Positions 1 to 19,383 of a stretch of 64,000 bases of DNA are shown here, piece after piece. Source of the DNA: a virus; the IMG/VR virus record IMGVR_UViG_3300012003_000002, positions 1 to 64,000 of that record. The stretch is one strand, 5' to 3'. How positions within the stretch are numbered: the stretch's first letter is position 1; each line of letters starts with the position of its first letter. Made by a program: the position numbers and the translations under genes. The notes below the pieces were generated by a model. That model was not told the origin of the DNA and made no database searches. It saw nothing but the letters and a program-made list of their open reading frames with translations.

Positions 1-783
1 GGATATATAGGAAGAACTAAAAATTTTTTAAATAAACGATTAAATGGTCATCTATCTAAAGCTAAAACAAATAAAATAAAAACACATAAAGATAATTGGT
101 TATTATCTTTATCTTCAAAACCTGCAATAGAACAACTTACAACAGTAATGGGTTGGAAAGAAAGTCATATTTACGAACAAAATCTGATTAAAGAATATCT
201 TGAAAAAGGATATAATTTAACAAATTTAGATGATCGTGGTGAAGGAGAAGTTAATAAAATTATAAGTAAGGAACAAAAAATTAAAATTTCTAAAAAAGTT
301 AAAGAAATGCACGACAATAATCAACTTTCGTGCAATAGAAAAGCTGTAGATATTTATGATTTAAAAGGTAATTTTATAATTTCAAAAAGAAGTTATAAAG
401 AAGCATCTGAATTTATTGGAATTAGTCAAAAACAATTTCAATCTTCTATGCGAAGAAATGCTAAAAGAATTAAAAATTATCAGGTAGTTTTGAAAGATTC
501 ATTAAAACCTAATGAATGGAAACAACGAACAGGAGAATTAACTAAAAATTTTAAAAAGATTTATTTATATAATATTGAAACTAGTGAAATTATTGAATTT
601 GAAGCAATAAAAAGATTTAAAGAGTTTTTTAATACTGGGGCAAGTACGGTTAATTATTATTTAAATAGTAATAAATTGTATAAAAATACATTTTTAATTA
701 CCGATGCCCGTTTAAAATTGGATGAATTCAGGGAAACTCCAGAAGTGGACAATCCTGAGCTAAGTACTAATCTAAATGATTAG
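1..783 (+). CDS. GIY-YIG homing endonuclease, intron-encoded (5' end outside window)
   Basis: The frame is open from base 1, so the gene begins before the window. The first visible residues contain YIG followed by RTKN and RLNGHL, the core of a GIY-YIG nuclease, and a Glu follows in the EQNLI stretch near residue 57, the expected metal-binding position. Two NUMOD1-like DNA-binding modules follow (around residues 115-160 and 185-230 of the visible part), each with a YDLKG or YNIET strand and a helix-turn-helix-like segment. The last ~20 codons overlap intron core sequence. Its likely role is to cut intronless ribonucleotide reductase genes and so spread the intron. The Met at 148 is an internal residue, not the start. 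Confidence 0.85.
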   Translation, partial: GYIGRTKNFLNKRLNGHLSKAKTNKIKTHKDNWLLSLSSKPAIEQLTTVMGWKESHIYEQNLIKEYLEKGYNLTNLDDRGEGEVNKIISKEQKIKISKKVKEMHDNNQLSCNRKAVDIYDLKGNFIISKRSYKEASEFIGISQKQFQSSMRRNAKRIKNYQVVLKDSLKPNEWKQRTGELTKNFKKIYLYNIETSEIIEFEAIKRFKEFFNTGASTVNYYLNSNKLYKNTFLITDARLKLDEFRETPEVDNPELSTNLND

Positions 784-824
784 TAAAAGTGCAACGACTA
801 GATATTGAAACTAAAAACATTAAA

Positions 825-1052
825 ATGAAAAATATAATATTATATAAACATTCAAGATTTATTCAATTAGGAACTAAAAATAAATTAAAAAATTATTTTT
901 ATAAAAATAAAAACATAACTTCTTATGAGTCTGACTTTATTCAACCAAAAGGTATTTATTGGAAAAGACAATCTAATAAAAAAGTTAGAAAAACTAATTG
1001 TTATAATGGAATGTATTATAAAAAATTATATGGATGGTTTGAATGGAGTTAG
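825..1052 (+). CDS. Small basic protein inside the intron, unknown function
   Basis: A 75-codon frame starting at ATG 825. A GTG at 789 in the same frame would start inside the conserved R element of the intron, so I prefer 825. The product is Lys-, Tyr- and Asn-rich and basic, with no motif I recognise; a C-terminal stretch of aromatic residues (YYKKLYGWFEW) stands out. It fills an insertion between the P7 and P8 segments of the group I intron. It could be a remnant of a second endonuclease, a splicing helper or a chance frame in AT-rich DNA. I cannot distinguish these. Confidence 0.35.
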   Translation: MKNIILYKHSRFIQLGTKNKLKNYFYKNKNITSYESDFIQPKGIYWKRQSNKKVRKTNCYNGMYYKKLYGWFEWS

Positions 1053-1171
1053 AATATAATATATCCAAGAGCGTCCAACATCTCTGCGAGAGATGATGAT
1101 ATAGTCTGAACTATATATAACAAAATAAAATATAGAAGTAGTAATTAAAAAAGCTACGATAACAAGCTGTG

Positions 1172-2695: not shown

Positions 2696-2711
2696 TTAAC
2701 AAAGTGTGAAA

Positions 2712-2906
2712 AAAGGTTTATATTAGCACTAATTTAAGATACCTCAGAAACCTTGAATCTATATAAGCCCCGTAACTGATAACTCGGTAGGCTATAGAGT
2801 AGACCCAAAATACACAATTAATAGCGAAGTTAGAGGCTTCGAGGTGTTTTTGAAAAAGGCTCCCACGTTTTGATAGTGAGTGTATAGTGAAACTGTAAGG
2901 TATCTT
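2712..2906 (+). ncRNA. Candidate structured RNA downstream of nrdJ
   Basis: About 330 bases between nrdJ and the helicase gene carry no convincing frame but many helices. AAGATACCT (2736-2744) is perfectly complementary to AGGTATCTT (2898-2906), extended by CAG/CTG. Inside lie a TATAAGCC/GGCTATA hairpin with an inner CCG/CGG stem (2762-2796), an ACAC/GTGT stem enclosing CGAAG/CTTCG (about 2811-2847) and a TTTTTGAAAAA hairpin. AAGGTTT (2713-2719) can pair with AAACCTT (2748-2754), which would cross the long helix and make a pseudoknot. I match it to no family: not a tRNA, and it lacks the group I core elements. It could be an untranslated-region regulator or a free RNA. Confidence 0.5.
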
Positions 2907-2914
2907 TTAATAAT

Positions 2915-3010
2915 AGAGAGAAGTTCTAATTTATTAGAATCGTCATCCATGAAGTTCGTATAGACGTATACCTACGATGTCACAATGAGGCACTTCTCTC
3001 TTTATTTTAA
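2915..3010 (+). terminator. Branched stem closed by a 10-bp helix, possible terminator or RNA domain
   Basis: AGAGAGAAGT (2915-2924) pairs perfectly with ACTTCTCTCT (2992-3001), followed by a T-rich run. Inside are a TTCTAA/TTAGAA hairpin, an ATCGT/ACGAT helix (2939-2943 with 2974-2978) and a GTATA/TATAC hairpin (2958-2971). The multibranched form is more elaborate than a simple intrinsic terminator. It may be the 3' domain of the RNA just upstream. It has no T-arm sequence, so it is not a tRNA. Confidence 0.45.
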
Positions 3011-3026
3011 TAAATAAAAATATTGA

Positions 3027-4112
3027 ATGATTAGAAATGAAATTCAAAGAATAATAATTGATAAAATTAAAAAAGCTTATTTTAGAGGAATTATATTAGC
3101 TTCTGTTCGTAGTGGTAAAACAAGAATTCTACTTACGGCAATTAAAGAATTATCAGATAATGACTTAAATATCAATATATTAGTAAGTACACCTCAAGTT
3201 GATATAATGCATAGTTGGATTTCAGAATGTGAAAAATTAGAATATTATCCTAAAATTGAATATTGTAATTTTAAATCTTTACATAAAATTCAAGATAATA
3301 AATATGATTATATAGTATTTGATGAAAGTCATGCTATACCGTTAGTTAATGTATTACCAATTGTAGCTAAAATTACTAAAAATAACAATAAAGTTATATT
3401 AGCATCGGGTACATATAGCGAAGAAACTCTTTTAAATTTAAAGTTTTCAACAGGTTTACAACAAATTGTAGATTATAGTACGGATGATGCAATTAACGAT
3501 GGAATAGTTAACAATTTTAAAGTTGAAATACATTTATTTAAATTAGATAATACTAAATCTGTACAATTTGGAGGATTAAAGAAATGGTATTCAACAGATT
3601 ATAAAGAATGTTTAAGAATGTCTAAAAAAGTAGAAGAATCTTTTGGGCAAGATAAAATGTTTGCAGCTTTATTTAGAATGAAAATGATAAATAGTTGTCA
3701 ATCATTAATTAGAAATGTGCAAAAATGGATTAAAGATAATCCTGATAAACGATTTATATTATTTACAGGAGATGAAAAAGTTGGTATTAATTATAATATA
3801 CCAATGTTTAATTCAAAGAGTAAGAATAACGACGTTTTAAAGGACTTTCAAGAATATCGTAGTAATAAGTTATGTCTTATCAAAAAAGGTGGCACAGGAG
3901 TGACATATGAAGGTCTAGATACTATATTGATTACAGATATTAACTCTAATTCTGAAACATTAGAACAAAGATGTGGTAGAAGTTTATTATTTGAAGAAGA
4001 TAAGGAATCTATAATTCATATATTCTGTAGTACAGAATTGTTCCAGATGAACTGGTTGGAGAAATCTCTAAAATCTATAAATCCTGAAAGAATAAGTTAT
4101 AAATATATATAA
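3027..4112 (+). CDS. SF2-family DEAD/DEAH-type helicase
   Basis: ATP-driven nucleic acid helicase of the replication and recombination module. Motif I (Walker A) is ASVRSGKT at residues 25-32, motif II is the DESH box at 99-102, motif III is the ASGTYS segment near residue 126, and motifs V-VI are GGTGVTYEG and QRCGRS near residues 290-327. At 361 residues it is a compact two-RecA-domain helicase without accessory domains. It starts at ATG 3027 immediately after the structured RNA region, and a short gap of five bases leads to the next gene. Whether it acts on DNA or RNA cannot be told from the sequence. Confidence 0.88.
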   Translation: MIRNEIQRIIIDKIKKAYFRGIILASVRSGKTRILLTAIKELSDNDLNINILVSTPQVDIMHSWISECEKLEYYPKIEYCNFKSLHKIQDNKYDYIVFDESHAIPLVNVLPIVAKITKNNNKVILASGTYSEETLLNLKFSTGLQQIVDYSTDDAINDGIVNNFKVEIHLFKLDNTKSVQFGGLKKWYSTDYKECLRMSKKVEESFGQDKMFAALFRMKMINSCQSLIRNVQKWIKDNPDKRFILFTGDEKVGINYNIPMFNSKSKNNDVLKDFQEYRSNKLCLIKKGGTGVTYEGLDTILITDINSNSETLEQRCGRSLLFEEDKESIIHIFCSTELFQMNWLEKSLKSINPERISYKYI

Positions 4113-4117
4113 AAAAT

Positions 4118-4327
4118 ATGATAAAAGAAGAAATTAAAAATGATATTTCCGTAAGTAGTAGAATAAAACATATTACAACAGAACAAGATAATAAAATTAT
4201 TGATTTTATTATAGACTATAGCTTCAAAGATGAAAAAGAATTTTATACAAATGGTACAATATTAGTTCCGTTATTTAGAGTATTAGATGCTATAAGTCAA
4301 AAAGGACAAAGTTACTGTGAAGGATAA
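4118..4327 (+). CDS. Small protein of unknown function
   Basis: 69 codons, in the early-gene run directly after the helicase and before a 241-codon gene. The product is charged, with no Cys pair, membrane segment or motif I recognise. The tight spacing on both sides (5 and 11 bases) supports a translated member of the same operon. Confidence 0.6.
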   Translation: MIKEEIKNDISVSSRIKHITTEQDNKIIDFIIDYSFKDEKEFYTNGTILVPLFRVLDAISQKGQSYCEG

Positions 4328-4338
4328 ATATTAAGTAA

Positions 4339-5064
4339 ATGAAAAAAATTAAAGAATTACAAAAAAGATCTAAGCTTAGTGAAGGTAGAAATTATGGTGT
4401 AGGATTTACTATCTTAAATAAAAAAGGTAGTAAATTTGAAACTTATTTATCATTTACAGCTTGTCGAGATTATTTAAATGATTTTGCTTATGTGGAATCT
4501 ACTAAAAAAGAAATTGGTAAAATTTATGGATATGATCACAAATTATTAAACTGTTTTGATAATAAAAATGTTGTATACTTTGGTGTAAAAACTTTACATT
4601 ACAATAATAATAATGGTAACTATGATAAATTTGATGAACTTCAAAATATTTTAATTAATAAATATGAAAATCTTCAAATATTTTTAAATAAAATTGAAGA
4701 TGATTTGAATATTAATGTTAAATCATCTATAGAATTAGACGAAGATACTTTAATTATAAGATGTTCTAAATTTTGGGTTAAATCGATACCATTAATTAGT
4801 GTTTATACATTATTAATTAGATGTTATTTTAATATTGATTTGATAGATGACAAACCTACTATAGATATTCTTAAAAATAATATACCATTTATCAATGATG
4901 ACTCTATGATGAAAAAACCTTGTATTGATTTTTATGAAATGTATTTGAATAATAAAGATAAATTTATCAATCCTGATTATAAAGGTTATAATTTAGTACA
5001 ACAAGGTAACCCTAGTTTAATTCATAATTTTGGAATAGATGGATTTATTAAAAAAATTAGATAA
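4339..5064 (+). CDS. Unknown early protein, 241 residues
   Basis: A soluble-looking protein with an N-terminal Lys/Arg-rich segment and a GVGFTILNKKG strand. The middle is rich in Asn and Tyr and there are no transmembrane segments. I recognise no catalytic motif or family. It lies between a helicase-linked small gene and a MITAEEF-type phage gene in one operon, so a role in replication or takeover of the host is possible, but only by position. Confidence 0.7.
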   Translation: MKKIKELQKRSKLSEGRNYGVGFTILNKKGSKFETYLSFTACRDYLNDFAYVESTKKEIGKIYGYDHKLLNCFDNKNVVYFGVKTLHYNNNNGNYDKFDELQNILINKYENLQIFLNKIEDDLNINVKSSIELDEDTLIIRCSKFWVKSIPLISVYTLLIRCYFNIDLIDDKPTIDILKNNIPFINDDSMMKKPCIDFYEMYLNNKDKFINPDYKGYNLVQQGNPSLIHNFGIDGFIKKIR

Positions 5065-5065
5065 T

Positions 5066-5371
5066 ATGATAACAGCAGAAGAATTTTTAATAGAAAATAA
5101 AGTAGTTGGGATGACACATTTATTAAGTTCTATTATGATAGAATTTGCAAAATTACACGTAGAAGCAGCTTTAAAAGAAGCTAGTGAAAAAGCTAAATTA
5201 TCAAAAGCTTATAATTATGGAAATTATAATGAATCAACCGCAATTTTTAAACTAATAGAAACAAAATGTTTTGTAAAAACAGAACATGGTCATGGTGATT
5301 GTGGTTATGAAGCAGTTAAAATAAATGAAGATTCCATATTAAAAGCATATCCACTAGAAAATATTAAATAA
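5066..5371 (+). CDS. Small conserved-type phage protein (MITAEEF N terminus)
   Basis: I place the start at ATG 5066, two bases after the upstream stop, giving MITAEEFLIEN, a start typical of small Bacteroidota phage proteins. An upstream in-frame ATG at 5039 lies wholly inside the preceding gene and is less likely. The product has an Ala/Glu/Lys-rich helix in the middle and a His-Gly segment (EHGHGDCGYE) near the C terminus. Function unknown. Its stop overlaps the next start (TAATG). Confidence 0.65.
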   Translation: MITAEEFLIENKVVGMTHLLSSIMIEFAKLHVEAALKEASEKAKLSKAYNYGNYNESTAIFKLIETKCFVKTEHGHGDCGYEAVKINEDSILKAYPLENIK

Positions 5372-5568
5372 TGAATGTAATTTATAAATTTAATAATGGT
5401 ACAGGAGGAACTATCTGCAATAAATGTAGAACAATAATAGCTACTGGTAAAAGAGTAGAAAGATTTTATTGTGATAAATGTCAAAGTAAATTAAATGAAG
5501 CTTTAACTAAACATTATGAAATAATGGATAAAGAAGTTCATAATAATAGAAACAATTTAAATAAATGA
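5371..5568 (+). CDS. Small zinc-ribbon protein
   Basis: 65 residues with two CxxC pairs (CNKC near residue 16 and CDKC near residue 34), the arrangement of a treble-clef or zinc-ribbon fold, followed by a charged helix. The start overlaps the upstream stop and the end overlaps the next start, so it is translated with its neighbours. It may be a small nucleic-acid- or protein-binding factor. No specific function can be assigned. Confidence 0.7.
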   Translation: MNVIYKFNNGTGGTICNKCRTIIATGKRVERFYCDKCQSKLNEALTKHYEIMDKEVHNNRNNLNK

Positions 5569-5828
5569 ATTTAGAAGATAAAATAGAATTAGTAGCTTCT
5601 GAAAGAGATTTAACATTTTGTTATCAAAAAGTAGCAGAAGAGATGTTTGAATTAGGTGAAATAATTATGAAACAAATTACTAAACCTAATGGTAGTGATG
5701 AAAGAATTCCACATTTAATTGAAGAATGTGGAGATGTTATATTAAATGTTAAAATTTTAACTTCTAAATTATATATTGAAGATGAAGTTAAAAAAAGAAT
5801 TAGTGATAAATTAGAAACATTACTATGA
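5565..5828 (+). CDS. MazG-like nucleotide pyrophosphohydrolase
   Basis: Predicted to hydrolyse nucleoside triphosphates to monophosphate and pyrophosphate, or to clear unusual nucleotides. The all-alpha NTP-PPase signature is visible: EEMFELGE near residues 25-32 and IEECGDV near 54-60, which supply the acidic magnesium ligands (EExxE and ExxD). At 87 residues it is a minimal single domain. It sits in the nucleotide-metabolism run, one gene away from an Nmad1-like gene, and overlaps the next small gene by four bases (ATGA). Confidence 0.8.
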   Translation: MNLEDKIELVASERDLTFCYQKVAEEMFELGEIIMKQITKPNGSDERIPHLIEECGDVILNVKILTSKLYIEDEVKKRISDKLETLL

Positions 5829-5953
5829 AAGAAGTTTTAGATAGATTAAAATTAATGTTAAAATGGTCTGATAGAATTGGTTCAGATGAAATAAATGAAA
5901 TTGAAGAACTTATTGAAATTCTTGAAAATCAAATAAAATATGACAGAAAATAG
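5825..5953 (+). CDS. Very small charged protein, 42 residues
   Basis: Starts at ATG 5825 within the ATGA overlap with the MazG-like gene and ends at TAG 5953, fourteen bases into the next gene. The product is predicted helical and acidic at the C terminus (EINEIEELIEILENQ). The double overlap with neighbours is typical of translational coupling and supports a real gene. Function unknown. Confidence 0.55.
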   Translation: MKEVLDRLKLMLKWSDRIGSDEINEIEELIEILENQIKYDRK

Positions 5954-6281
5954 ATTTGAACAAATTGTTGATGAAACTTTAAATCAAATTAGAGAAACTC
6001 TTATCGTAAAAGGTAAAGAATATCGTAGGAATCAAGATCCGTTTCATAATTTTAATCAAGGTGGTATTAGGTCACAACAACATCCATTAAAAGTTTTAGA
6101 TGGATTTTTATTAAAACACGAAGTTTCAATTTCAGATATTTGTGATGATATTATATATTATGATAAAAAACCTAAAATTGAAACAGTTGATGAAAAATTA
6201 GGAGATAATTTAATATATTTAATATTAAAGAAAGCAATGTTAATTGATATAATTGAAAATGAAAAATTGGAAAATAATTAA
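5940..6281 (+). CDS. Nucleotide modification associated domain 1 (Nmad1/DUF1599)-like protein
   Basis: The KGKEYRRNQDPFHNF segment (about residues 24-38) followed by a helical region matches the pattern of the Nmad1 family, found near phage genes that alter nucleotides. The acidic EKLGDNLIYL near the C terminus is also in keeping. The biochemical role of the family is not well defined. It lies in the same operon as a MazG-like enzyme and a ribonucleotide reductase, which fits a nucleotide-pool role. The 3' end overlaps the start of the phosphoesterase gene. Confidence 0.6.
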   Translation: MTENRFEQIVDETLNQIRETLIVKGKEYRRNQDPFHNFNQGGIRSQQHPLKVLDGFLLKHEVSISDICDDIIYYDKKPKIETVDEKLGDNLIYLILKKAMLIDIIENEKLENN

Positions 6282-7002
6282 ATTTTTTAAAAGTTTATTT
6301 TATAAAAAAGTAGTTAAACTTAAAAGAATTTGGCACATTTCGGACACTCATAGCTATCATAGATTATTAACTATTCCTGAAAATATAGATATTGTAATCC
6401 ATAGTGGCGATGAATCTAATTCTAAAGACCAATATACTAATGAACCTGAATTTAGAGATTTTATACTATGGTTTGCTAATTTAAAGATTAAACATAAAGT
6501 TTTTGTAGCTGGAAATCATAGTTCTTTTATATTTCACAATAAAAAAGAAGTTAATAAAATTTGTAAAGATTTAAATATTATATATTTAGAAGATGATTGG
6601 ACACTTGTTGATGGAATATCAATATGGGGAAGTCCAATCACTCCAAACTTTGGAAATTGGTGGTTTATGAAAGATAGAAGTAAAATGGATAAATTATATT
6701 CATCTATTCCTGATTGGATAGATGTGGTAGTGTCTCACGGACCTCCTAAAGGAATATTAGATCTTTCTTATGATAAGGATGGTAAATTAGAATTTTGTGG
6801 CTGTAAAAGCCTTAGGAATCATATGTTAAATAGAGTGCAACCACAGTTATGTCTTTTTGGACACATTCACTCTACTGAAGATATTATAAATGCGGGAACA
6901 GTTAAATTATCTGGTTATGAAACTATTTTTAGTAACGGTTCAGTTGTTACAGATAGAAAATTTGGAAAATTAAGTAGTAATGGTAATATATTTGAAATAT
7001 AA
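6259..7002 (+). CDS. Calcineurin-like metallophosphoesterase
   Basis: Two-metal phosphoesterase. The ordered motifs are all present: HISDTHS (D, H), HSGDES (GD), GNHSS (GNH), SHGPP and FGHIHS (GHxH). The start is taken at ATG 6259; an upstream TTG at 6253 is possible but less likely. A basic N-terminal extension of about 25 residues precedes the fold. Substrate unknown: in phages such enzymes act on nucleic acids or cyclic nucleotides. A second, unrelated-looking phosphoesterase is encoded at 34603-35529. Confidence 0.87.
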   Translation: MKNWKIIKFFKSLFYKKVVKLKRIWHISDTHSYHRLLTIPENIDIVIHSGDESNSKDQYTNEPEFRDFILWFANLKIKHKVFVAGNHSSFIFHNKKEVNKICKDLNIIYLEDDWTLVDGISIWGSPITPNFGNWWFMKDRSKMDKLYSSIPDWIDVVVSHGPPKGILDLSYDKDGKLEFCGCKSLRNHMLNRVQPQLCLFGHIHSTEDIINAGTVKLSGYETIFSNGSVVTDRKFGKLSSNGNIFEI

Positions 7003-7011
7003 AATTAAATT

Positions 7012-7191
7012 ATGGAAGAAATATATAAATTAAAATTTGGAGAATATTTTACAGTTGATGAATTTTTAGATGTTTTAAGAGTTCCAGGTGGATGGATTTA
7101 CGCATTTAGAGAAATGGTTGATGGTAAAGAAACTGAATATTTTTATCAAAAAGTATTTGTACCATTTAATGCTGAATTTATGACTTTTTAA
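7012..7191 (+). CDS. Small unknown protein, 59 residues
   Basis: ATG at 7012 to TAA at 7189-7191. The product begins MEEIYKLKFGEYFTVDEFL and has a GGWIYAF segment, which looks like a compact beta-rich fold. It lies nine bases after the phosphoesterase and two before the next small gene, so it belongs to the same transcript. Function unknown. Confidence 0.6.
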   Translation: MEEIYKLKFGEYFTVDEFLDVLRVPGGWIYAFREMVDGKETEYFYQKVFVPFNAEFMTF

Positions 7192-7193
7192 TT

Positions 7194-7337
7194 ATGATAA
7201 TAGAAAGTTTAGATTTAGAGGAAGGTACAATTGCAATAGAATGTGAAAATTGTAATAAAATAGTAAAAGTTGAAATTCATACTGGAGATAGTTGTCCCAA
7301 TTGTAATGAATGGGTAGATACTCCGTTTGGAGATTAA
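7194..7337 (+). CDS. Mini zinc-ribbon protein, 47 residues
   Basis: Last gene of the plus-strand run, ATG 7194 to TAA 7337, ending just before the terminator. Two CxxC pairs (CENC and CPNC) separated by about 15 residues form a zinc ribbon. Function unknown; it resembles the small zinc-ribbon gene at 5371 only in its metal-binding pattern. Confidence 0.6.
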   Translation: MIIESLDLEEGTIAIECENCNKIVKVEIHTGDSCPNCNEWVDTPFGD

Positions 7338-7344
7338 ACACAAA

Positions 7345-7389
7345 AAAGCCACAGTGACCTTAATTGGTTACTGTGGCTTTATTTTTTTT
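7345..7389. terminator. Bidirectional intrinsic terminator between convergent operons
   Basis: AAAGCCACAGTGACC and GGTTACTGTGGCTTT form a near-perfect stem with a TTAATT loop, with a T tract on the plus-strand side and an A tract on the other. It can end both the plus-strand early operon and the minus-strand cargo operon. Confidence 0.88.
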
Positions 7390-7396
7390 AGACCCT

Positions 7397-10300
7397 TTAA
7401 TTTTGTTTTCCAAATTCTAAACCATATCTTTGTTTATAATTAATACCTACTTGTGGTATAATTGGAATAAGTTTAGATAAATGTTTAGACATTTTATTTT
7501 GACCTTTAGAATTTTCATCTAAATATCCAAATACAGATTCACCTTTACCTGGAACTAAATTAATTGGTGTTGCAACATCATATATAAAATTAAGTCCATT
7601 TTGAATAAATCTAATACCTGCAACTGGATTTTGAATCATTCTAGTTGCTTCTATTGGATTTCTAAATTGAGCTAACTCTTGAGTTAATCTCCTATTGGTG
7701 TACATAGCAAACCATAATAATTTATTATCTTTATCATCTCCACCAGCAGCACCTAATAATAATCCAATAGAAGGTAATATTACCATTGTAAACATTATTT
7801 CTAAGGTAGCTTTTTTTAAATTAGCTTTTTCATATTCAGTAAGATTATCATAATTCATATACATTGTTTGTAACATCTGTAAATTAGGAACCCCTGTTTC
7901 TCTTAAAAATCTTATTAATGTTGTATATGTACCTTCAATATATTCTTTTTCAGCAGAATTATAAAATCTATCATCATCTGTTAAATCTGATTTCTTTTTG
8001 TAAGAAGTTGTAAATCCAGTATATCTATAAGCAGCTGCTACTAAAAAGAAATTCTTAAACATCATTACAGATTTACCCCACCAAGCCTTAGATATTTCAT
8101 TTTTATATTTAATATCATAAACTCCAAATAATTGAAATACTTTAGCTTTAATTAAAAGTTTAATTTGAGATTTACCACCTTCGTGATATTTAGTAGTTAA
8201 ATTAAATCCAGAATAAGCAACTTTAGAATTCATTTGCAATTGACCGTGTTCATCAAAATATAACATATCTGCTAATGAAGCACCTTTATCTTCTGTAGTA
8301 ATATTACCATCTTTATCTAAGTAATTATTATTTTCATCCATTGCTTTAATACCATCTAATATAGATTGTGTTAATATTGAATGCATCATATGTTCACCAG
8401 ATTCATTTATAAAATTACCTGTTTTTCTACTACCTAATTTTCTTATTATATTATTACGTAAAGCATCTTGTTCATTTTGACCAAGACCACCAAACACATC
8501 AAACATTTCAAGTAATTGATTAAAGTAAGAAGTTTTAACAGATCTACCCATATCTTTAAGTAAATTACCGTTCATCATTTCTTTATTGTATTTTAACTCT
8601 GCTTTAGCAAAAGTTTCAACATCAAATCTATGACCTCCTACAGCTTCAGTAAACACTTGAGTTAAACCATTTGCAATATTTACAGTACCAGATGCTAAAT
8701 TAAAAGTCATTGCTAAACCTGCAGCATATCCATTTAAAGCATTAGTTATTTTATTAATATCTGCAGAACCAAATGTTCCACCGTGAGTACTATAAATATC
8801 ATAAACATTACGTTCCATCATACCTACTAATTTCTTATAAGTATTACTTAACTCACCTTTAACTTCAATTTTACTTTTACCAGTATAATATGTATTACTT
8901 TTAGCAATATCTGTAACTAATAATAATTTAGGTTCAATTGCAGTTTTTTCTTTAAAATTTTGACCATTCCAATATTCATTTCTATACATTGTTTCTAAGT
9001 CTAAAGATTGTTCTTTAGGATCAATTTGACCTCTATAAGCTGTTTTAACACGTCTTATAATATCACCTTGACTATTTTTTTCTTCAGAACCAGAATCTAT
9101 ACCAATATCATCAGATTTAATTTTGGTTAAATCAGTCCATTTATCTTTAGTTAGACCTTTTACATCTGTTTCTAAAACTCTCTCTAAATCAGATTTACTT
9201 TTTGAAGGTAATTTGTGAAATTCAGCTCCCATTAAAGTAGTTACTAAAGAATCAAAACCTTCAATTTGATCGTTATCTTTATCTATTTTTTTATAACTAT
9301 CTAAAACTTCTTTTTCAATTCCAGTTAATTCTTTATTTAAAAATTTTGGATGAGGTATTGTTTTACCTTTTTCATTTTTAATAGTATTTTCTTTAAACCA
9401 AGCTTTATACATTTTATTCCTATTTTTAAATGTAGTAGATGTTTTAGAATCTTCTTCCACTTTAACATAAGATATAATATCCATTGAACCAGAATTATTT
9501 ATAAAATTATAAATTTCAGGATACATCTGAGATTTTTTAGAATCTTCTTTAGCATAATCATTTGAATTTTTAAAATCTTCAAAATCTTTATAATTACCTA
9601 CAGCTTTTGCAAAATCATTTTTACGTTCATCACTTAAACTATTAAAATTATTAAAAGTTTTGATTTGATCTATTTGAACTTTTATACCCGTATTAATACC
9701 ATTAACAGTAACTACAGCTATATCATTATCAATGAAATTATGTTCACCAGATTTACGTAAAGAGATAGTTTTCTTATCTTTTCTTAAAGAATCTAAATTA
9801 ATATCTTGAACTTGTAATTTTTTAAAACTATTTTCATAAGAATCTTCAATATCATTTAAAAGTTTAGTAAAAGATTCTTTAAATTTAATACTGTATTTAC
9901 CTTTTAAATATACTTGACCTTCAGAATCTTTTTCAATTAAATTTTTATTTAGTTCAGATAATTTTTTATTACCTTTTTCAGCAACAAATTTATCAAAAGT
10001 TTTACCCATTTGATGAATTTTACTAATAACTAAAGTTTTAACTTTATCAAAAGATTCGGCATAAATTTGATTTACAATTTGAATAGTTTTACTTTTAATA
10101 TTAAGAGGGTCTTCAAGTTTTTGAGACATCATTGTAATATCTTTAGATGGATCATTTAAAATCTTTTCAGCAGATGCTTTTAAATCAGCTTTATAATCAG
10201 CTAAATCTCTTGTTGCTAACATTTTAGATATATATTGATCTGCTGATAAACCTTGTTTATCTGATAATTGATTATATTCTTTAAGTAATTCATCACGTTG

Positions 10301-12175
10301 TTTAGTTTCAACCTCTGTATTATACATAGGATTACTAAAATCCTGTAATACTTGAGCTTTACTAATTGCTAAAAATTTACTTTCAATAGAATCATGTTTT
10401 TTAGATGCTTCAGATAAAAAATCTTTTAATTGTTTATAATCTTCTAATTCTTCTTCAGTTAATTCAAATTGTTTTAAATCAGCTTGACTCATTAATTCTT
10501 TAATTTCAGGAAGTAGATCATAAGCAGATAAATAATCTTTATATCTTTTAAGTAAATCATCCAATTTATCTTCATAAATATTTTTAGTTTCTAATAAATT
10601 ATCTAATAATGAATTTACATGATTAATAGTTTTATCAAAAGATTGAGCATATCCTATTACAGCTTTCCATTTTTGACTTTTTTCATATTTATCTAAAGTT
10701 TCTAATAATTCTTTATTACGAAGTATATGTTCTTCTTTAGAGGGTGTACTATTTTTATTATTAGATTTAATTGTACGATCTTGAATAGATTGAGTTTTTG
10801 TCTTAGCTTTATCTATAATATTAGCTAATTTAGATTGTAAACTACTATATTTAGAATCATCTTCAATTCTTTTTTCAAAAATTAAATCTTGAGAGTTAAG
10901 TCCTGTGTAATGTCTTTTATCAGATTCAACAAAATCTATAATTTTTTCTATTAATAAATCAGATTCTTTAGTTTTAGCTAAACCAATTTTTCTTCTTATA
11001 AAATTTTTTATAAGATTAATAAATTTTTTAAAATATGAAGTATTATTTTCTTTATCTAAATTTTTTAATTCTTGTCTAAATTCTTTATTTACATATATTT
11101 CAGCTACAAATTCAAGTTTATTAGTAAATCCATATTTCATTAAAGATTTTAATTTTTTTTCAAAATCTTCAATTATATCAGAATGGTCATTACCTGTTTT
11201 TTCAGATTCAGATTTTAAATTTTCAATAGTATTTTTCAAACTTGTTAAAGTTGAATCTAAACTTATTTTTTTATCTTTATAAAATTTAAAATATTTTTCA
11301 ACATTATCATTAAATTGATGTTCATCAAAACTTTGAGGATTTTTTAATGCTTCAATTGTTTGAGCATGAGATATTTCATGTAAAATCCCTCTAATAACTG
11401 TTTCTATATTACGAGTATTTATAATATCTCTACTTACTTGAATAGTATTTGTTTTAGTTTTAATATGCATTAATGCCGTTTTACTAAATTCTGATTTATC
11501 TACAATTTCAAATTTAGCTCCAGTTTTACCAACTAATCTTCTAGATTTTTCTAATAATTCTTTACCTATTGGTGATAAGTTTTTATAATTATTTAGAATA
11601 TTTTCAAGAATTTCATCTATTGTAAATTTACCTCGTTTATTATTAAATAATATACTATTATTTTGTTCTTCATATGGTCTGTTTCCAGATTCAATAGGAT
11701 CTATATCTTCTTCAACTAAACTTTCTTTAATATTTGATTCGTATTGAAATTTACTTATAGTTCTATCATTTACAGTATTATCTGGTCTAAATATATATCT
11801 AAAAGTACCATCTTCATTTAAAAATTTAAAATAGATTCCTTTTGGAGTAAAAATTCTATATTGTTGACCACTAAAAAGAGCATGTTCTTTATAATCACCA
11901 ATATCTTCTCTTCTACCCCTATATTCTTTTTCTTTATTAAGAATATCAGATTCTAATTCATTTTTTTTAGACCCTATAAGATCATTAAAATCTATTTTAT
12001 TTTCTAATTTATTATTATCTGTTTTAACTTCTTCAAATTGAATATTATTTTTATAATAACTATTAGGAACATTACCATTATATTCAGTCCATAGAACGTA
12101 AGCTTTATTTTCTCCTACATTCTTGACTAAATTCTTCCATGCAACTAATCGCTTATTCGGGCAAGATATACTCAT
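7397..12175 (-). CDS. Giant virion cargo protein with zincin-like HEXXH motif, 1592 residues
   Basis: Last gene of the cargo operon. An HEISH motif at residues 266-270, followed by LEFVAE around residues 354-359 as a candidate third metal ligand, marks a zinc metallopeptidase-like domain of the kind found in large polyvalent phage proteins. Long Lys/Glu-rich coiled-coil segments occupy the middle. The C-terminal third has hydrophobic stretches (near SVMMFKNFFLVAAAY and IMFTMVILPSIGLLLG) that could enter a membrane. By position next to the RNA polymerase it is probably packaged and ejected. The peptidase might process other cargo or digest a host target; both are inference. It starts one base after the ferritin stop. 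Confidence 0.8.
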   Translation of the reverse strand: MSISCPNKRLVAWKNLVKNVGENKAYVLWTEYNGNVPNSYYKNNIQFEEVKTDNNKLENKIDFNDLIGSKKNELESDILNKEKEYRGRREDIGDYKEHALFSGQQYRIFTPKGIYFKFLNEDGTFRYIFRPDNTVNDRTISKFQYESNIKESLVEEDIDPIESGNRPYEEQNNSILFNNKRGKFTIDEILENILNNYKNLSPIGKELLEKSRRLVGKTGAKFEIVDKSEFSKTALMHIKTKTNTIQVSRDIINTRNIETVIRGILHEISHAQTIEALKNPQSFDEHQFNDNVEKYFKFYKDKKISLDSTLTSLKNTIENLKSESEKTGNDHSDIIEDFEKKLKSLMKYGFTNKLEFVAEIYVNKEFRQELKNLDKENNTSYFKKFINLIKNFIRRKIGLAKTKESDLLIEKIIDFVESDKRHYTGLNSQDLIFEKRIEDDSKYSSLQSKLANIIDKAKTKTQSIQDRTIKSNNKNSTPSKEEHILRNKELLETLDKYEKSQKWKAVIGYAQSFDKTINHVNSLLDNLLETKNIYEDKLDDLLKRYKDYLSAYDLLPEIKELMSQADLKQFELTEEELEDYKQLKDFLSEASKKHDSIESKFLAISKAQVLQDFSNPMYNTEVETKQRDELLKEYNQLSDKQGLSADQYISKMLATRDLADYKADLKASAEKILNDPSKDITMMSQKLEDPLNIKSKTIQIVNQIYAESFDKVKTLVISKIHQMGKTFDKFVAEKGNKKLSELNKNLIEKDSEGQVYLKGKYSIKFKESFTKLLNDIEDSYENSFKKLQVQDINLDSLRKDKKTISLRKSGEHNFIDNDIAVVTVNGINTGIKVQIDQIKTFNNFNSLSDERKNDFAKAVGNYKDFEDFKNSNDYAKEDSKKSQMYPEIYNFINNSGSMDIISYVKVEEDSKTSTTFKNRNKMYKAWFKENTIKNEKGKTIPHPKFLNKELTGIEKEVLDSYKKIDKDNDQIEGFDSLVTTLMGAEFHKLPSKSKSDLERVLETDVKGLTKDKWTDLTKIKSDDIGIDSGSEEKNSQGDIIRRVKTAYRGQIDPKEQSLDLETMYRNEYWNGQNFKEKTAIEPKLLLVTDIAKSNTYYTGKSKIEVKGELSNTYKKLVGMMERNVYDIYSTHGGTFGSADINKITNALNGYAAGLAMTFNLASGTVNIANGLTQVFTEAVGGHRFDVETFAKAELKYNKEMMNGNLLKDMGRSVKTSYFNQLLEMFDVFGGLGQNEQDALRNNIIRKLGSRKTGNFINESGEHMMHSILTQSILDGIKAMDENNNYLDKDGNITTEDKGASLADMLYFDEHGQLQMNSKVAYSGFNLTTKYHEGGKSQIKLLIKAKVFQLFGVYDIKYKNEISKAWWGKSVMMFKNFFLVAAAYRYTGFTTSYKKKSDLTDDDRFYNSAEKEYIEGTYTTLIRFLRETGVPNLQMLQTMYMNYDNLTEYEKANLKKATLEIMFTMVILPSIGLLLGAAGGDDKDNKLLWFAMYTNRRLTQELAQFRNPIEATRMIQNPVAGIRFIQNGLNFIYDVATPINLVPGKGESVFGYLDENSKGQNKMSKHLSKLIPIIPQVGINYKQRYGLEFGKQN

Positions 12176-12176
12176 A

Positions 12177-12680
12177 TTAATCTAATAAATTTTTACCAAT
12201 ATAATTATCAATAACTAACATATCGGTACTTAGTTTATAAATATCTAAATTAGTAATAGATTTACCAATTTCTTCTTGTTGTTCACTACAATATCTTAAA
12301 GCAAGTTGATATAAGACATGATTACCTTCTTTAAGAGCTAAAGTAGCTAAATCTTCACATTGTTTAGTAACAATTAATTCATGATCATATGCAGCTTCTA
12401 ATACATCAAGTAAATCATCTACCTCCATTTCTGGAGAAGGAAGTGATTGTAAACATGGTGTAAGACCATAATCTAATAAATAACTTTTTGAAAATCCCGC
12501 ATGAACTAATTCTTCATTTGAATAATTTTTAAATAATTTTGCAAAATTTAAATAACCTTTATTATTTAACCATAAAGATAATTGTTCATATATTCTTGAA
12601 GAATGCTCTTCTTGTTGTATTCTATAATTTAAAGTTTCTACAACTTTATCATTTAATAATTGTTTTCTTTGATCTTCCAT
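12177..12680 (-). CDS. Ferritin (non-haem, with complete ferroxidase centre)
   Basis: 167 residues, the usual length of bacterial ferritin. All ferroxidase ligands of the E. coli FtnA type can be placed: E24 (EEHSS), E57 and H60 (EELVH), E101 (DHE), and E133, Q134 and E137 (SEQQEE), in four helices of correct spacing. The helix C pattern (LEAAYDHELIVTKQ) is also typical. It should therefore oxidise Fe(II) and may form a cage. Its start overlaps the RNA polymerase stop (TAATG), and the 1592-residue cargo gene follows directly, so it is translated with virion proteins. Whether the product is packaged, protects against oxidative damage or withholds iron is unknown. Confidence 0.9.
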   Translation of the reverse strand: MEDQRKQLLNDKVVETLNYRIQQEEHSSRIYEQLSLWLNNKGYLNFAKLFKNYSNEELVHAGFSKSYLLDYGLTPCLQSLPSPEMEVDDLLDVLEAAYDHELIVTKQCEDLATLALKEGNHVLYQLALRYCSEQQEEIGKSITNLDIYKLSTDMLVIDNYIGKNLLD

Positions 12681-15088
12681 TATTTACATATTTTTTTTAA
12701 TAATTCTCCTATTTCATCTTCTGATTTATTACTTAAATCTTCAATACTATTTATTCCCAATTCATTAAATTTATTTAACATTAATCCTTGTTCAAACATT
12801 TCTTTTAAATTATTCATTACTTTAGATTCTTGAATATTATCAATTATTGAAGTAGTATTAACATTTTTAATTTCATTATCAACTTTTTTAACATTATCAT
12901 CTTTAACTTCATTTGAAATAACTTCATTATGATATTCAGCATCTCTAGATATTACAGCTAAATCATTTAATATCTTTTGACCTCTTACAGTTGCTAAATT
13001 ACCAATAGCTTCTGAAGATGGTTTTAAAATAATACCTTCTCTACTATAACCATAAATACGATTACCTTTCTTATCTCTTCTATTAAGAGGTTGAACGTCA
13101 ACATATTTACCTTCAGTATTTTCAATAAATCTAGTATAAACACCTTTACCTTCACCTGTATAACCTAATAATTTATAATAACTTATACCAGAATCTGTAG
13201 ATTTAACTTTAAAATAACTTTGTTTACCAAGTTTTTTCATTATAAAACCATTATTTCTAATACTAATACCATGTGGAAATTCTACAGTTTTAACAAGTGT
13301 ATCAATTTGACCTTCAGTTACATTTTTAACATATTTAGTATTATCTATATTTGATAAATAAAATTGATCAATCATATTAGAATCATTAAAACCTTGATTA
13401 TTATAATTATCATTAGTATCAATAATATATCTATTTATGTTATTTCTCATCATCCATTGAGATGGTATATGAGTAAAAAACTGATTAGGATTCATTGAAA
13501 ACCCTGATGTTAAAAATGAATATTTAATTAATTTTTCAGCAAACTCAGGTTCTTTATCTAGTAAGTCTGAAAATGAATTAGTTAAAGATTCTTCAATTTC
13601 TGGACTTTTAATTCTATTATTTAATGTAATATAATCAATTTTACCAGCTCCAGGTTTAACAACTAAAGTATCTACAATAGAATATAATTCTTTATTATTT
13701 TTTTGAAATTCTTTAAATTGATTTACAAAATTTGTAAGTAAATCTGTTTTATCAGCAATTGATATATTTAAAGGTTGAAATCCTGACATTAAATAACTGT
13801 AAGCGTGTTTTTCTAATTCATCACCTAATTCATTATCTAAAAGTTTATCACCACTTAAATCATATGCTATTTCATTAAATGAATTTTGTATAATAGAATT
13901 TGCAGATAAAAATAATTTAGGATTAGCTTTAACAATTTTATCAACACCTAAAATTACATTATTATAATATCTCAAAGCCATTGATTTACTACCATTAGGA
14001 TTTTGAAATATAGTTTGAAAACCTTTTAAAACAATATTTTTATCATTAGGATTTTTATCAAACTTTTCTTCATTTTCACGTATAGAATCTACTAAATTTT
14101 TAGATATTTGCAAATCTGTAATATTCTTACCATTACCATTAACCATATATTTAGTAGCATTAACAACTTTCTGTAAAACTTTAGAACCATCTTGAAAATA
14201 TAGAAATGAATATAATGTATTCATTCTGTGTTCAATAGAACCTTTTTTACTAATTTGATCTCTTAAAGATTCTAATGAATTATTTAAAATATTTCTTTTA
14301 TTATAATCTTTATAAGTATCTTTACCAAATTCTTGTTCAATAAAAGCATCTAAAGTACTTAAACTTTGGTTATCTGATTTCTCGTATTGTTGACTAAATT
14401 TAACATAATCTTGAATTACAGTTTGTGATAGTAAAGCATTAACATAAAATGGATGTACACCATATCTTAATAATAAGTTACCTGTATTAGTAGTCATTGT
14501 TGTCCAACCACCTTCTGTAATATATGGATCTTTTGCAATATCTACAAATGCATTTAATACAGCAGATAATGAATTACTAATTTTAATAGAAGTTAATTCC
14601 TTAACTTGTTCATCTGTAAATTTTAAAACTTTTTTATAATATTTAATATCTTCATTTGATAAATCATTAGAATATTCAGAATCTAATTTATTATTTGAAT
14701 TAGGTACACTAAAGTTAGTTAATGACTGTTTAGACATGCTACCTAATACATAAGACATTAAAGCGTTTGCTTGTTGTCCTACACCAGCTTGACCAGCTAA
14801 AAATCCATATCTAGTATCAATATTTTTTATTGGATTAAATAAGCTTAAATTAGTTATTGCAGATTGTTTATGAATACTCCTAATATCATTCTTCATAAAA
14901 TCAAAGTCAATAGGTGTCATAACCTCTGGAATAACTTTTTCATTTAATAAAACAGATTTGTATAATTCAATTAATCTATTTTGTAAACCTTCTTTAGTTT
15001 TATTTTCAGAATTATAATTAATATAATTTAAATTATTAGATTCTTTATCATAATTAAATGAAGGAAACATTATATACATTTTATCAAT
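12680..15088 (-). CDS. Virion RNA polymerase, exon 2 (C-terminal part)
   Basis: Continues the polymerase after the intron: the first codons read IDKMYIMFPSF, completing the DFD-I-D-KM catalytic motif begun in exon 1, comparable to DFDGDQM of cellular beta-prime subunits. The ATG at 15091 is the last three intron bases and not a normal start. The remaining ~800 residues include conserved-looking segments such as AGQAGVGQQANALMS and LLLRYGVHPFYV, and a Lys/Asn/Glu-rich tail. Spliced, the protein is about 2149 residues, the size of known crAss-like phage polymerases. The stop overlaps the ferritin start. Confidence 0.88.
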   Translation of the reverse strand: MDKMYIMFPSFNYDKESNNLNYINYNSENKTKEGLQNRLIELYKSVLLNEKVIPEVMTPIDFDFMKNDIRSIHKQSAITNLSLFNPIKNIDTRYGFLAGQAGVGQQANALMSYVLGSMSKQSLTNFSVPNSNNKLDSEYSNDLSNEDIKYYKKVLKFTDEQVKELTSIKISNSLSAVLNAFVDIAKDPYITEGGWTTMTTNTGNLLLRYGVHPFYVNALLSQTVIQDYVKFSQQYEKSDNQSLSTLDAFIEQEFGKDTYKDYNKRNILNNSLESLRDQISKKGSIEHRMNTLYSFLYFQDGSKVLQKVVNATKYMVNGNGKNITDLQISKNLVDSIRENEEKFDKNPNDKNIVLKGFQTIFQNPNGSKSMALRYYNNVILGVDKIVKANPKLFLSANSIIQNSFNEIAYDLSGDKLLDNELGDELEKHAYSYLMSGFQPLNISIADKTDLLTNFVNQFKEFQKNNKELYSIVDTLVVKPGAGKIDYITLNNRIKSPEIEESLTNSFSDLLDKEPEFAEKLIKYSFLTSGFSMNPNQFFTHIPSQWMMRNNINRYIIDTNDNYNNQGFNDSNMIDQFYLSNIDNTKYVKNVTEGQIDTLVKTVEFPHGISIRNNGFIMKKLGKQSYFKVKSTDSGISYYKLLGYTGEGKGVYTRFIENTEGKYVDVQPLNRRDKKGNRIYGYSREGIILKPSSEAIGNLATVRGQKILNDLAVISRDAEYHNEVISNEVKDDNVKKVDNEIKNVNTTSIIDNIQESKVMNNLKEMFEQGLMLNKFNELGINSIEDLSNKSEDEIGELLKKICK

Positions 15089-15342
15089 CATTACTACCTT
15101 ATATTTCTATAAGGATTAGACTATATCATAATTATTACAACTGTGTAACAATCCTCTCCGCTTCCACCTGATTAGGTGTACTCTACTTGGTTATTCAGTT
15201 AAACTAAGTTTTAACTTATCCGTTCGATAGTCGTTGAACGTTCCTTAATAAATTAAGGCTTCGCTGCTGATTGTCTTCACTATTATGTGGTCAGAGTTTC
15301 CAGCAATTCAAAGAGTTTTACTTCGACTGTGATTAAATGTTA
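15089..15342 (-). ncRNA. 254-nt group I intron inside the RNA polymerase catalytic motif
   Basis: P1 is clear: exon bases ACTTCGAT (15350-15343) pair with intron GTCGAAGT (15327-15320), with a U.G pair at the splice site. An R-like element (GTTCAACGACTATCG, about 15239-15225) and S element (GATATAGTC, 15127-15119) can form P7. The intron ends with G at 15089. Removal joins GAT (Asp) to ATT-GAT (Ile-Asp) in frame and restores DFDID. It contains no endonuclease frame. Without splicing, translation stops at the intron's first codon (TAA). Confidence 0.9.
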
Positions 15343-18300
15343 ATCGAAGTCACTACCCGTCTTGGTAGTGATACCTGTATAGGCTACAATAGTATCTCCA
15401 TTTTCTTCAGGAAGGATACCTACAATCTGTAAAGCATCATTAGAAGATAAACCTTGATTAGGAATTCTATATCCTATAATATTGTTAAGAATTTTATCAT
15501 CAATTATACCTTTAACAAATTCACCATTTTCATTTGTATAACCAAATAATTCTTTATCAGATTTTGTAGCATAATCAGGAATATATTTTGCAATAAATGA
15601 ACCCGATATTAATACACCACCTGGTCTAACAATTTTTTTACCATTTTTAGATAATATAAATTCACCTTTACCGTCTTTTAAAAATTGTGGTTCGTGTGTA
15701 GTAGCTAATGCATTTGGACTCCAAATTACATTCTGAGCTTCAGCATTTTCACTATTTAAACCATAATTAGACATTTGTATAAATGAACCACCATTAGTTT
15801 GAATCTTTAAAATACGTTTAGTCATAATAGCACCAAATATATTCTGTAACTTCTTTTGAACTTGTGGTAATCCGTAAATAGAAACTTCAGATTCTAAAGC
15901 TCTAATTACATTTCTAGAACCATTTCTAGATTTTAATTCAGAAATTATTGATTTGTAAAAAGTATCTAAGTTATTAATTTTACCATTAGAGTCAACTCCA
16001 AATTCTTTTAATACACCATTATAACCTAAGTCAGATAAATCTCCTACAACATTTGCAATATTTTCAATCATTTGATCACCAGTAAATAATTCTTCACCAT
16101 TTACTTCAAATTCATTGTCTCTATTAAAAGCTAAACCTTGAAATATATTTTTTTGCAATTGAGAACCTAATTCAGTATCCTTCATTGTCTTAGTTGGTAA
16201 GTCTTGTTGTAACTTCCAACCATTAGAAGGTAATATCATTGGATTTAAGACAAAATCTTCTAAAAGAGTACCATTATCATCATAAGTACGAGTTGGTTTA
16301 TTAGAACCCACTTTAATTGCATCAAATGTTAATAATTCATCAACTTTTGAATTAACCATTTTATTGTAAAGTTTTTCTAAATCATTACCTTTACGTAATC
16401 TTGGTGTTAAAACAGCTTGTGAATATTTTAAAAACACAGGTTGTCCATTTATTAATTGACCATATTGACCTTTAATTGGTTGCGCAGCTTTTTTCAATTC
16501 TTTTTCTGTAAAAGGATCTGTGTTAATACCTTCCATTTTATCATAAGTAGATTGGTATATCATATTCCATTTACCTGTACTTTGAATTAAATCTTTCCAT
16601 CGTTTTGGAGTTATCCAAGCTTGAGCATCTGCAGAATTAATATTTGTATAATATTTCGCAATCTTTTCACCAACCAATTCTTCAATATCTGAATGAAACG
16701 GGCTAGCAATATTTATACTTTCAATAACTGCAATTGTAAAATTTTTAGTTTCTTCGGTAAGTCTTTGATAATTACCATCTCCATATGTCCAAGGAATACG
16801 TTTTTTATAATCAACTCCATTTTTATAATAAGCTACATCTCCAGCAAACATTTTAGAATATTCAACTTGTGCGATTAAAGAGTTAATGTAATAATCGGTA
16901 GCTACTTTAAGTTCTTGGTCTTGACCATATTTATCCCACACTTTAGAATTGATTCCTAAATTCTTATAAGAAGTATCAGCGTTTTGTTCAAATAATTTAA
17001 TTTCTACTAATTTAGACATTGTATCATTAATATCTTGAACTAATGCTTGTTTAATATAACGTTTAATATCTGCTTCAAATTCAGAACCTTTTAAAGTTTC
17101 TAAATAAGCATTACCATTTTCATATATTAAATGAAAATTACTACCAAAACTTTTAGCAACATTAGCAATTTTATTAGGACTTAAAGATGGAAATAACTGT
17201 GATTTAAAAGCATTTCCATCATCTAAATGATAATAAGTAGTTAATTTATCTTTATTATTTTCATCAACCATAAAAGCATTCTCAACTCTCATTCTTCTAT
17301 ATTCAGAATCAAAGTATTCAAATATCACATCTAAAGCTTCTTCATTAAAATCTATACCAAATTCACCACCATATCTTGCATTTGTGGATATATTTCCACC
17401 CATAGATATTTCATACTGAGTACCTTTATCTGCTGGTGGAGCTGTTTTACTATATGTCAAACCTCCATTAATGAATGCTATTGTTTTATTAACATCATCT
17501 AAAATGTATTGATTTTCATTTATTTCTTTAACATTTGCAGATTCTGTAGTATTTTCTTTTTCTTCTTGAAATACATTAAAACTACCTAAACTAATAGCAT
17601 CGATTCTTTTATTAGATTCTTCAATTCTAGCTGCTTCTTGAGCTTCTGATGAAGTTAATTCATCAACTTCATAAGTATCTCCAAATGCTAATAGATATTT
17701 CATTTTATAAGAACCTGAATTGTATTCAGATGCTTGATAATTATTTAATAATATATTTCTATCTTTTTTCCAAGCTTCTATTGTATTAGATAAATATGAT
17801 GGATATGAAAATGTCCACTTTTGTTTATCACCTGTAAATACAGAAAAATCTGCATTTTCAGCCATATAGAATACTTCAGCTCTAGCTAAATTTTTAAATA
17901 TAGGATTACTACTAAAAGCTTCTTCTAAATTCTTAACTTTATTATTTTCAATATCTAAAAAGAAATATTTTAAATCTGTTATAGTTTTATTAAATATTTT
18001 ATCAGATAACTTAGAATCATTTCCAATTAATTTTAAATTATCTAAATAATGATTAAATCCTTTTACTGTTGATTCAATACCTAAATCTCTTAATAATTGA
18101 ACAAATTTGTTTATAGCATCAGGTTGAGAAATATTAAATTTATCAAGTTTATCAGAATAAGATTTTAATATTTGTTTATCTTGATCACTAATTATTAATT
18201 TATCACCATCAACAGTAACGAAATCAGTTTTAAAATTACTTCCCCAAACATATAGAACATCATTTTCTTTCTTAGCAGATTGTGCAGCATTAATATTAGA

Positions 18301-19383
18301 CCATTCTATATTACCATCTTTACCTCTTTTAAATTTAGATGTATTTAAATTACCTTGATGTAAATTAAACGCCGATGAAAATTCATTTTTAATTTCTTCA
18401 GATAATTCTGGATCAGATAACATTCTATAAAGTTCTTTAAAATAAGGTTTTTTACCTACAAATTTTAAAACTTCAGATTTTAATAATTCAAATCTATCTT
18501 CTTGAATACCATCTTTTTCTAATGCTACAATGTTTGATAATTGACTTAATAAATCATTATGAATTACATTAAAATCAATATATACTTTATCATTTAAAAA
18601 ATAGTCTGAATTTTCAACATCTTCAATTAATGATAGTCTAAATTTAATATTAGCTGTAACACCTTCTTTACTACTTTTTTCATTTGATTGAGTATTATAT
18701 GAAGGGTCTTTCTGATTTTCTATAATTTCAATTTCAGATAATTCAGAATCTTCATCAGAATTTAAATTATCTTTAGTTTTAATTTTATTTTGTTCAAAAA
18801 CAGTTTTAACATTATCAACAATTTCATCTAAATTTTCTTTTAAAGAGGTTTCTAATTTATCAGCTACATCTTCAAAATAAACATCTCCTGAAGTTCTTAA
18901 AAAATCAATTCTTTCTCTTAATTTAGAAATAACTGCCATTTTAATTGTAGTAGTTTCTTTTTCTAAATCAATATTGTTAAAATCAACTTTTAAATGATTT
19001 TTAAAATAATCATTAATTAAAACTTTGGTAAGTTGTTGAATTTCTTGATATTCAAATAAAGAATTTAAACTTTTCTTATTCTCAACAAGAACCACTTTGT
19101 TATAATCTTTATCTAAATAATACCAATCACCTGTTTTATCATTTTGATATAACATAGGTTCTCCATTATCTTCAGTTCTGTCAATATAAGATAAATTATC
19201 ATTCAAATTCTCGTAACTATTTTCATAAGCTTTCTTCCAATCACCAAACTCTTTAATGAATTTATCATCTTTAGCAAAAGAAGAATGAAGAGTTTTTGAC
19301 AACTCCTCATCTCCATTAAATGCTGTTAATATTTTATTATACAGTTTTGATTCTGTACCGTTTACTATAAACTTACAACTCAT
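15343..19383 (-). CDS. Virion RNA polymerase, exon 1 (N-terminal part)
   Basis: DNA-dependent RNA polymerase of the crAss-like type, related to cellular beta/beta-prime and to eukaryotic RNA-silencing polymerases, packaged and injected to transcribe early genes. The 1347 residues end in RIPNQGLSS...GSDFD, the double-psi beta-barrel leading into the metal-binding loop; three Asp (1345, 1347 and, after splicing, 1349) coordinate magnesium. The N-terminal ~600 residues are Lys/Asn/Glu-rich and helical. The start ATG 19383 lies two bases after the upstream gene. Unspliced, the product would stop after Asp1347 and lack the third aspartate. Confidence 0.9.

Follow-up and report, generated by a model that had tools for sequence, protein, structure and literature searches.

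A split virion RNA polymerase gene

The stretch of DNA analysed here (64,000 nucleotides, hereafter the window) comes from a virus record of 97,561 bases, which consists of one linear metagenomic contig. On its minus strand, two open reading frames, 15340..19383 (1347 aa) and 12680..15091 (803 aa), follow one another; they belong to one crAss-like virion RNA polymerase gene, which is split by a complete 254-nt group I intron (15342..15089, minus strand). Exon 1 (15343..19383, minus strand, 1347 codons) ends in GSDFD and exon 2 (12680..15088, minus strand, 802 codons plus stop) begins with IDKMY, so that the catalytic DFDID loop is divided into GAC TTC GAT (DFD, 15343..15351) and ATT GAT (ID, 15083..15088). 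The only PDB match for both exons is 6VR4, the RNA polymerase of the crAss-like phage phi14:2: phmmer aligns residues 8-1347 of exon 1 with residues 27-1377 of chain 6VR4_A (E 2.5e-144), and exon 2 matches the same chain with E 2.2e-51 over its main stretch, its residues 1-19 being aligned from chain residue 1378. The cut thus falls between chain residues 1377 and 1378, inside DFDID, and the spliced chain aligns with neither a gap nor a missing residue, in agreement with the initial annotation, which had placed the intron between the second and third Asp of the DxDxD loop (GSDFD|IDKM). Pfam and PHROGs recognise neither exon, and the polymerase assignment therefore rests on 6VR4.

In the unspliced frame, the first intron codon is TAA, as had been anticipated, and translation would stop directly after GSDFD. 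Removal of the intron yields a single open frame of 2149 codons (...TKTGSDFD|IDKMYIMF), the product of which is a homologue of phi14:2 gp66, a single chain with a DFDID loop. Splicing would hence be indispensable for an active enzyme. The virion RNA polymerase of phi14:2 is packaged in the virion, and by analogy the window polymerase is probably packaged as well. If it is, the virion polymerase of one infection cycle would depend on splicing in the late message of the previous cycle.

The intron is recognised by the Rfam group I model RF00028 (15374..15097, 85.1 bits at a cut-off of 50 bits, E 2.6e-22, model positions 1-253 of 253), which bears out the group I identity that had been assigned by eye. 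A whole-window scan of the 64 kb at the gathering threshold did not report this match, owing to the speed filters of that scan; a targeted scan and a whole-genome search both returned 85.1 bits, and long loci that lack an Rfam match are accounted for by the same filter effect. All elements of the core could be located, including the P1 with U.G, the R and S elements and the 3' terminal G mentioned in the initial annotation. P1 is a perfect 8-bp helix between the exon strand ACUUCGAU (15343..15350, including the splice-site U) and the internal guide GUCGAAGU (15320..15327), with a U.G at the splice site. P3 is formed by 15309..15315 and 15154-15160, P4 by 15300-15305 and 15265-15270, P5 by 15293-15295 and 15274-15276 (P4 and P5 from the RF00028 alignment and helix search), and the P6a hairpin spans 15243..15258. 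The R element GACUA (15228..15232) pairs with the S element UAGUC (15119-15123) to give P7, and P8 (15131..15152, from fold and helix search) and P9 (15097..15114) complete the core. A candidate P10 joins AUCA (15330..15333) to UGAU of exon 2 (15083-15086); its 4 bp are weak alone, and a similar P10 is seen in most relatives. The interval between P7 and P3 holds two hairpins of the P7.1/P7.2 type (15210-15215/15198-15203 and 15174-15178/15165-15169); P7.1/P7.2 elements in this interval characterise the Group IA type, to which the intron may belong. The interval of these hairpins (15165..15215, after R) is where related introns carry an endonuclease gene; the window intron shows no open reading frame in any part of its 254 nt. 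The minimum-energy fold recovers P1, P4, P8 and P9 unaided and is 2.7 SD more stable than shuffled sequences.

The ends of the intron are defined by the U.G of P1, the terminal (omega) G at 15089 and an empty site in a sister phage. Of the interval originally proposed, 15089-15343, the 3' end stands and the 5' end is one base too long, 15343 being the last T of the exon. Together, the P3-P9 core with its P7, the guide-made U.G of P1, the terminal G and the precise joining of the exons assign the element to group I. An intein was rejected: the insert has stop codons in all three frames and a ribozyme core.

Elsewhere in the window, a second, diverged group I intron is found at 725-1126 (plus strand), in which 725-802 corresponds to the P4-P7 half (41.4 bits) and the region near 1094-1126 possibly to the P7-P9 half. 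Its neighbours are a frame with a NUMOD1 domain (148-783) and a frame at 1169-2695 with weak similarity to ribonucleotide reductase.

Related introns in the DxDxD loop

Searches with the endonuclease of a relative, RNA polymerase profiles and intron-end patterns revealed introns in the polymerase DxDxD loop of 27 crAss-like contigs or records, including the window, some of them near-identical; a spliced query of the Zeta type retrieved one locus only, and a query built from an alignment was more productive. Within the loop, the introns occupy each of the four boundaries between codons (D|F|D|I|D), and one further site lies at GS|D: (i) GS|DYDID in L179; (ii) D|FDID in L085, L086, L087, L088, L093, L094, L097 (= cr131_1), L098 and L099, and, in a variant loop GGDS|FDID, in L089 and L090; (iii) DF|DID or DY|DID in L103, L104, L144 (a human gut record) and L166; (iv) DFD|ID or DFD|VD (site B) in the window, L002 (= cr116_1), L091, L092, L102, L095, L096, L100, L142 and L311; and (v) DFDI|D in L101, a 171.7-kb contig in which TAG is a sense codon. 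In the variant loop (L089 at 2783, L090 at 1239), GGDS|FDID replaces GSD|FDID, and the first of the metal-binding Asp residues seems to have been shifted or substituted. The polymerase exons of several contigs read through TAG (L101, L179) or TGA (L103, L104, L144, L166) as sense, so stop-codon recoding and introns coexist in the same gene.

Exact ends could be defined for 22 of these introns, and in each of them splicing restores the loop in frame. Their P1 scores average 11.7. With shuffled exons the average falls to 3.3 (SD 0.65), and when exons are exchanged between introns it is 5.6 (SD 0.85); in 2000 trials of each control, the value of the real introns was never attained. At four different sites, the guides fit the exon in the respective register. 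For L166, the automatic scan found no P1 within 45 nt, and the P1 loop is likely longer there. In P9, 97.4% of the cells across the 22 introns are paired, all seven pairs show two-sided compensatory changes, and the covariation score, which none of 500 shuffles equalled, lies far above slid and shuffled controls.

These comparisons bear on whether the two frames might instead be translated separately, as halves of a split polymerase that assemble without any splicing. The reading frame of the unspliced message does end with the first codon of the intron, exon 2 is directly preceded by an in-frame ATG (15089-15091) with AAGG five bases upstream, and in the public annotations of cr116_1 and cr131_1 the parts appear as separate hypothetical proteins. 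However, the intron-final triplet is ATG in 14 of the 22 introns, ACG in six, GCG in one and TTG in one, which marks the ATG as an intron end, formed by chance with the terminal G, rather than a conserved start; this led us to reject separate translation. Moreover, the AAGG belongs to the covarying P9 helix, of which it forms the 3' strand, the in-register guides at four sites speak for splicing, and the catalytic Asp residues would be placed on two chains. Homologues in which the parts are two separate functional proteins, which would have contradicted the intron, were not seen: the homologues are one chain. We regard separately translated halves as very improbable and retain the spliced, single-chain polymerase.

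Most introns of the loop carry one related family of LAGLIDADG endonucleases (LAGLIDADG_2, PF03161, E about 1e-24). Against Rfam, these endonuclease-bearing introns score below threshold in each half (23-39 bits; 34.7 and 32.3 in one of them), as expected when a long reading frame separates the intron halves. In a tree, the endonucleases of the polymerase loop form one group (95/99), within which those from D|FDID and DFD|ID are intermixed, with partly weak inner support; the intermixing implies that the register changed more than once or that introns moved between registers. The DxDxD loop is a hot spot for many related introns at shifted registers, a point absent from the initial annotation.

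Two introns at site B can be compared directly with the window copy. L311 (IMGVR_UViG_3300035498_000142), which was retrieved by its intron end, carries a 256-nt intron, equally devoid of a reading frame, exactly at DFD|VD, which is 73% identical to the window intron over 242 nt and differs from it by compensatory changes in P3, P6a, P7.1 (two in each of these three) and P9. Its host gene is different, a distant polymerase resembling that of cr116_1 with 50% amino acid identity near the junction. The ORF-less form is thus persistent at site B. The L311 gene holds another insertion that resembles an intron (about 320 nt); it lies about 130-450 nt upstream of the loop intron, near the conserved GYRIP motif, and has a group I 3' end, and the L311 polymerase gene may thus carry two introns. 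The intron of cr116_1 (MT774389, Pamirivirus faecium) shares site B with the window intron and is 92% identical to it over 39 nt at the 3' end, but it is 873 nt long and encodes a LAGLIDADG_2 endonuclease. The L311 intron is also relevant to the possibility that the window insert is a degenerate intron unable to splice, or an error of assembly, and that it inactivates the polymerase gene of this contig. The window record being one linear metagenomic contig would leave room for an artefact, but none of the core helices is disrupted, the exons together are free of stops over 2149 codons, and the independent ORF-less homologue of L311, an unrelated contig, occupies the same site and shows compensatory changes; a remnant or artefact is accordingly hardly credible.

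Among introns in other genes, those of staphylococcal and other phages (e.g. 812, A3R and P4W; ORF-less or endonuclease-bearing) share about 69-70% nucleotide identity over 87% of the window intron and have the same core; they differ in gene, insertion site and guide. More distant relatives of the LAGLIDADG family are found in L109-L117, in introns located behind a conserved motif ('ISNTD' or 'IANTD') of a different phage gene. The polymerase gene itself also has insertions outside the loop: in L180 (4168-5560) and L183 (near 4165-5540), a phase-1 intron of another type lies four codons upstream of the DYDID loop, the insert of L180 containing a 370-aa endonuclease-like frame with HTH domains that differs from the loop family, and large insertions away from DxDxD are present in L064 (near 2077-5920), L078 (near 5328-5824) and L080 (near 6198-11585).

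Empty sites and probable exon co-conversion

Comparison with uninterrupted homologues, suggested at the outset, revealed the expected empty sites. The sister phage L005 (86% amino acid identity across the whole gene, 91% in the best segment) lacks the intron, and phi14:2 gp66 and nearly all of the first 80 polymerase relatives are uninterrupted. Between the window and L005, 12.8% of the conserved amino acids have synonymously different codons gene-wide, whereas directly before the intron the figure is seven of ten codons; only two of 2139 ten-codon windows reach seven synonymous differences, and both abut the intron. This stretch, the only one of its kind in the gene, is a likely co-conversion tract in exon 1 (15343..15375, minus strand). 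The altered flank ends in GGTAGTGACTTCGAT (15 nt), which is identical in L311. A synonymous tract next to the intron and a flank identical to that of L311 are what exon co-conversion during homing predicts, and this pattern suggests that the window intron arrived recently.

An empty allele and the signature of exon co-conversion, both typical of homing introns, are found for the window intron; an intron-borne endonuclease is absent from the window copy and present in relatives. A search of the whole 97.6-kb record for a local source found no member of the LAGLIDADG family of the loop introns. The Phe codon of the loop is TTC in all eight genes with an intron at DFD|ID (site B) and in 10 of 103 uninterrupted genes (Fisher p 1e-7, with kinship ignored). 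This excess fits P1 pairing, co-conversion or both.

Retention of the intron as a regulatory switch, through late-stage or condition-dependent splicing and not merely as a selfish element, appears unlikely. The protein is needed in the virion and splicing would gate the production of active enzyme, and the intron endonuclease in the virion RNA polymerase gene of PhiPA3 can benefit its phage (PMC11620839). The distribution argues otherwise, being patchy, with the sister phage and most sampled relatives free of the intron; so does the co-conversion signature, which points to a recent arrival, and no regulatory feature was found.

A probable mobile lineage specialised on a catalytic loop

Very probably, the insert is a self-splicing group I intron without a reading frame that entered the catalytic loop by homing and belongs to a mobile lineage specialised on DxDxD; splicing in vivo and homing by an endonuclease are what we infer from the sequences. 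The process could be envisaged in the following manner: The ribozyme guide would pair with GAC TTC GAT and the message would be cut after the U of the second Asp codon. Ligation to ATT GAT would restore DFDID in one chain of 2149 aa, the joined product being GACTTCGAT-ATTGAT. The late message would splice itself, and only the spliced message would place all three metal-binding Asp residues on one chain.

Related introns occupy the four successive boundaries of GAY-TTY-GAY-ATH-GAY, with a guide matched to each register. In a model with a single target and shifting introns, the endonuclease would cut in or near GATTTTGATATTGAT in all registers. For the endonuclease, the conserved metal-binding codons would be a target with little freedom to mutate, and the T that closes them would supply the U of the splice-site U.G; the loop may suit introns because its amino acids are hardly ever replaced and T is the last base of most of its codons. 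A precedent for a register shift exists in the thymidylate synthase gene, where related endonucleases (I-TevI, I-BmoI) and their introns are found at shifted sites. The window copy would have lost its endonuclease gene or never had one. Its entry may have been driven in trans by the endonuclease of a co-infecting relative, or by one that has since been lost, and a short stretch of the donor exon would have come along with it.

Group I introns at conserved catalytic sites are already known, including one in a virion RNA polymerase subunit (PhiPA3), and conserved sites of host proteins are preferred by group I introns (PMC2814812). The intron of PhiPA3 gp210 resembles the loop introns in that a group I intron with an endonuclease directly follows conserved Asp residues in a phage virion RNA polymerase gene (PMC11620839). 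It differs in residing in a beta-type subunit, encoding an HNH endonuclease, occurring in jumbo phages and occupying a single site, whereas the loop introns interrupt the DxDxD motif of a beta'-type polymerase and encode LAGLIDADG enzymes, the window copy being without an endonuclease. The PhiPA3 endonuclease targets the empty site of a competitor: it nicks the PhiKZ gene and impairs PhiKZ virions (Science 2024, PMC11620839).

For crAss-like phages, Yutin et al. (2021) described polymerase genes of the Zeta group in which DxDxD is interrupted by stop codons and frameshifts, and suggested that further, unknown mechanisms of expression exist; no intron was named at DxDxD, and the alpha-gamma group was stated to be without such insertions (PMC7886860). 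The cases described here concern the same gene and motif, but the breaks are group I introns with defined boundaries and extend beyond the Zeta group. A 2025 paper on the Zeta group mentions introns in passages that do not refer to the DxDxD site (PMC12386605). A search of the openly searchable literature, with subscription papers outside its scope, found no published report of an intron in the DxDxD loop, and the introns of this loop and their register shifts appear undescribed in the literature searched.

The element is thus of an ordinary type in an extraordinary place, its host being a crAss-like phage of the gut type. It offers a concrete mechanism for a published puzzle, the polymerase genes of crAss-like phages that are broken inside their most conserved motif: an essential gene would look 'broken' in many of these phages because of loop introns. 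We lean towards an extended reading, in which one LAGLIDADG lineage uses the loop as its dedicated landing zone, moving along it in steps of whole codons with its guide re-tuned each time, and in which many of the 'broken' genes are explained by such introns and not by an unknown mechanism of expression; ORF-less copies would move by means of endonucleases supplied by co-infecting phages, and these enzymes may also cleave the polymerase gene of competitors without the intron. For annotation, the polymerase gene should be read as spliced, giving one chain. Related introns at adjacent codons of one metal-binding loop further provide a natural series that is useful for studies of site shifts. If the endonucleases do cleave polymerase genes without an intron, they may be a driver of competition among the most abundant human gut phages, as in PhiPA3 and PhiKZ.
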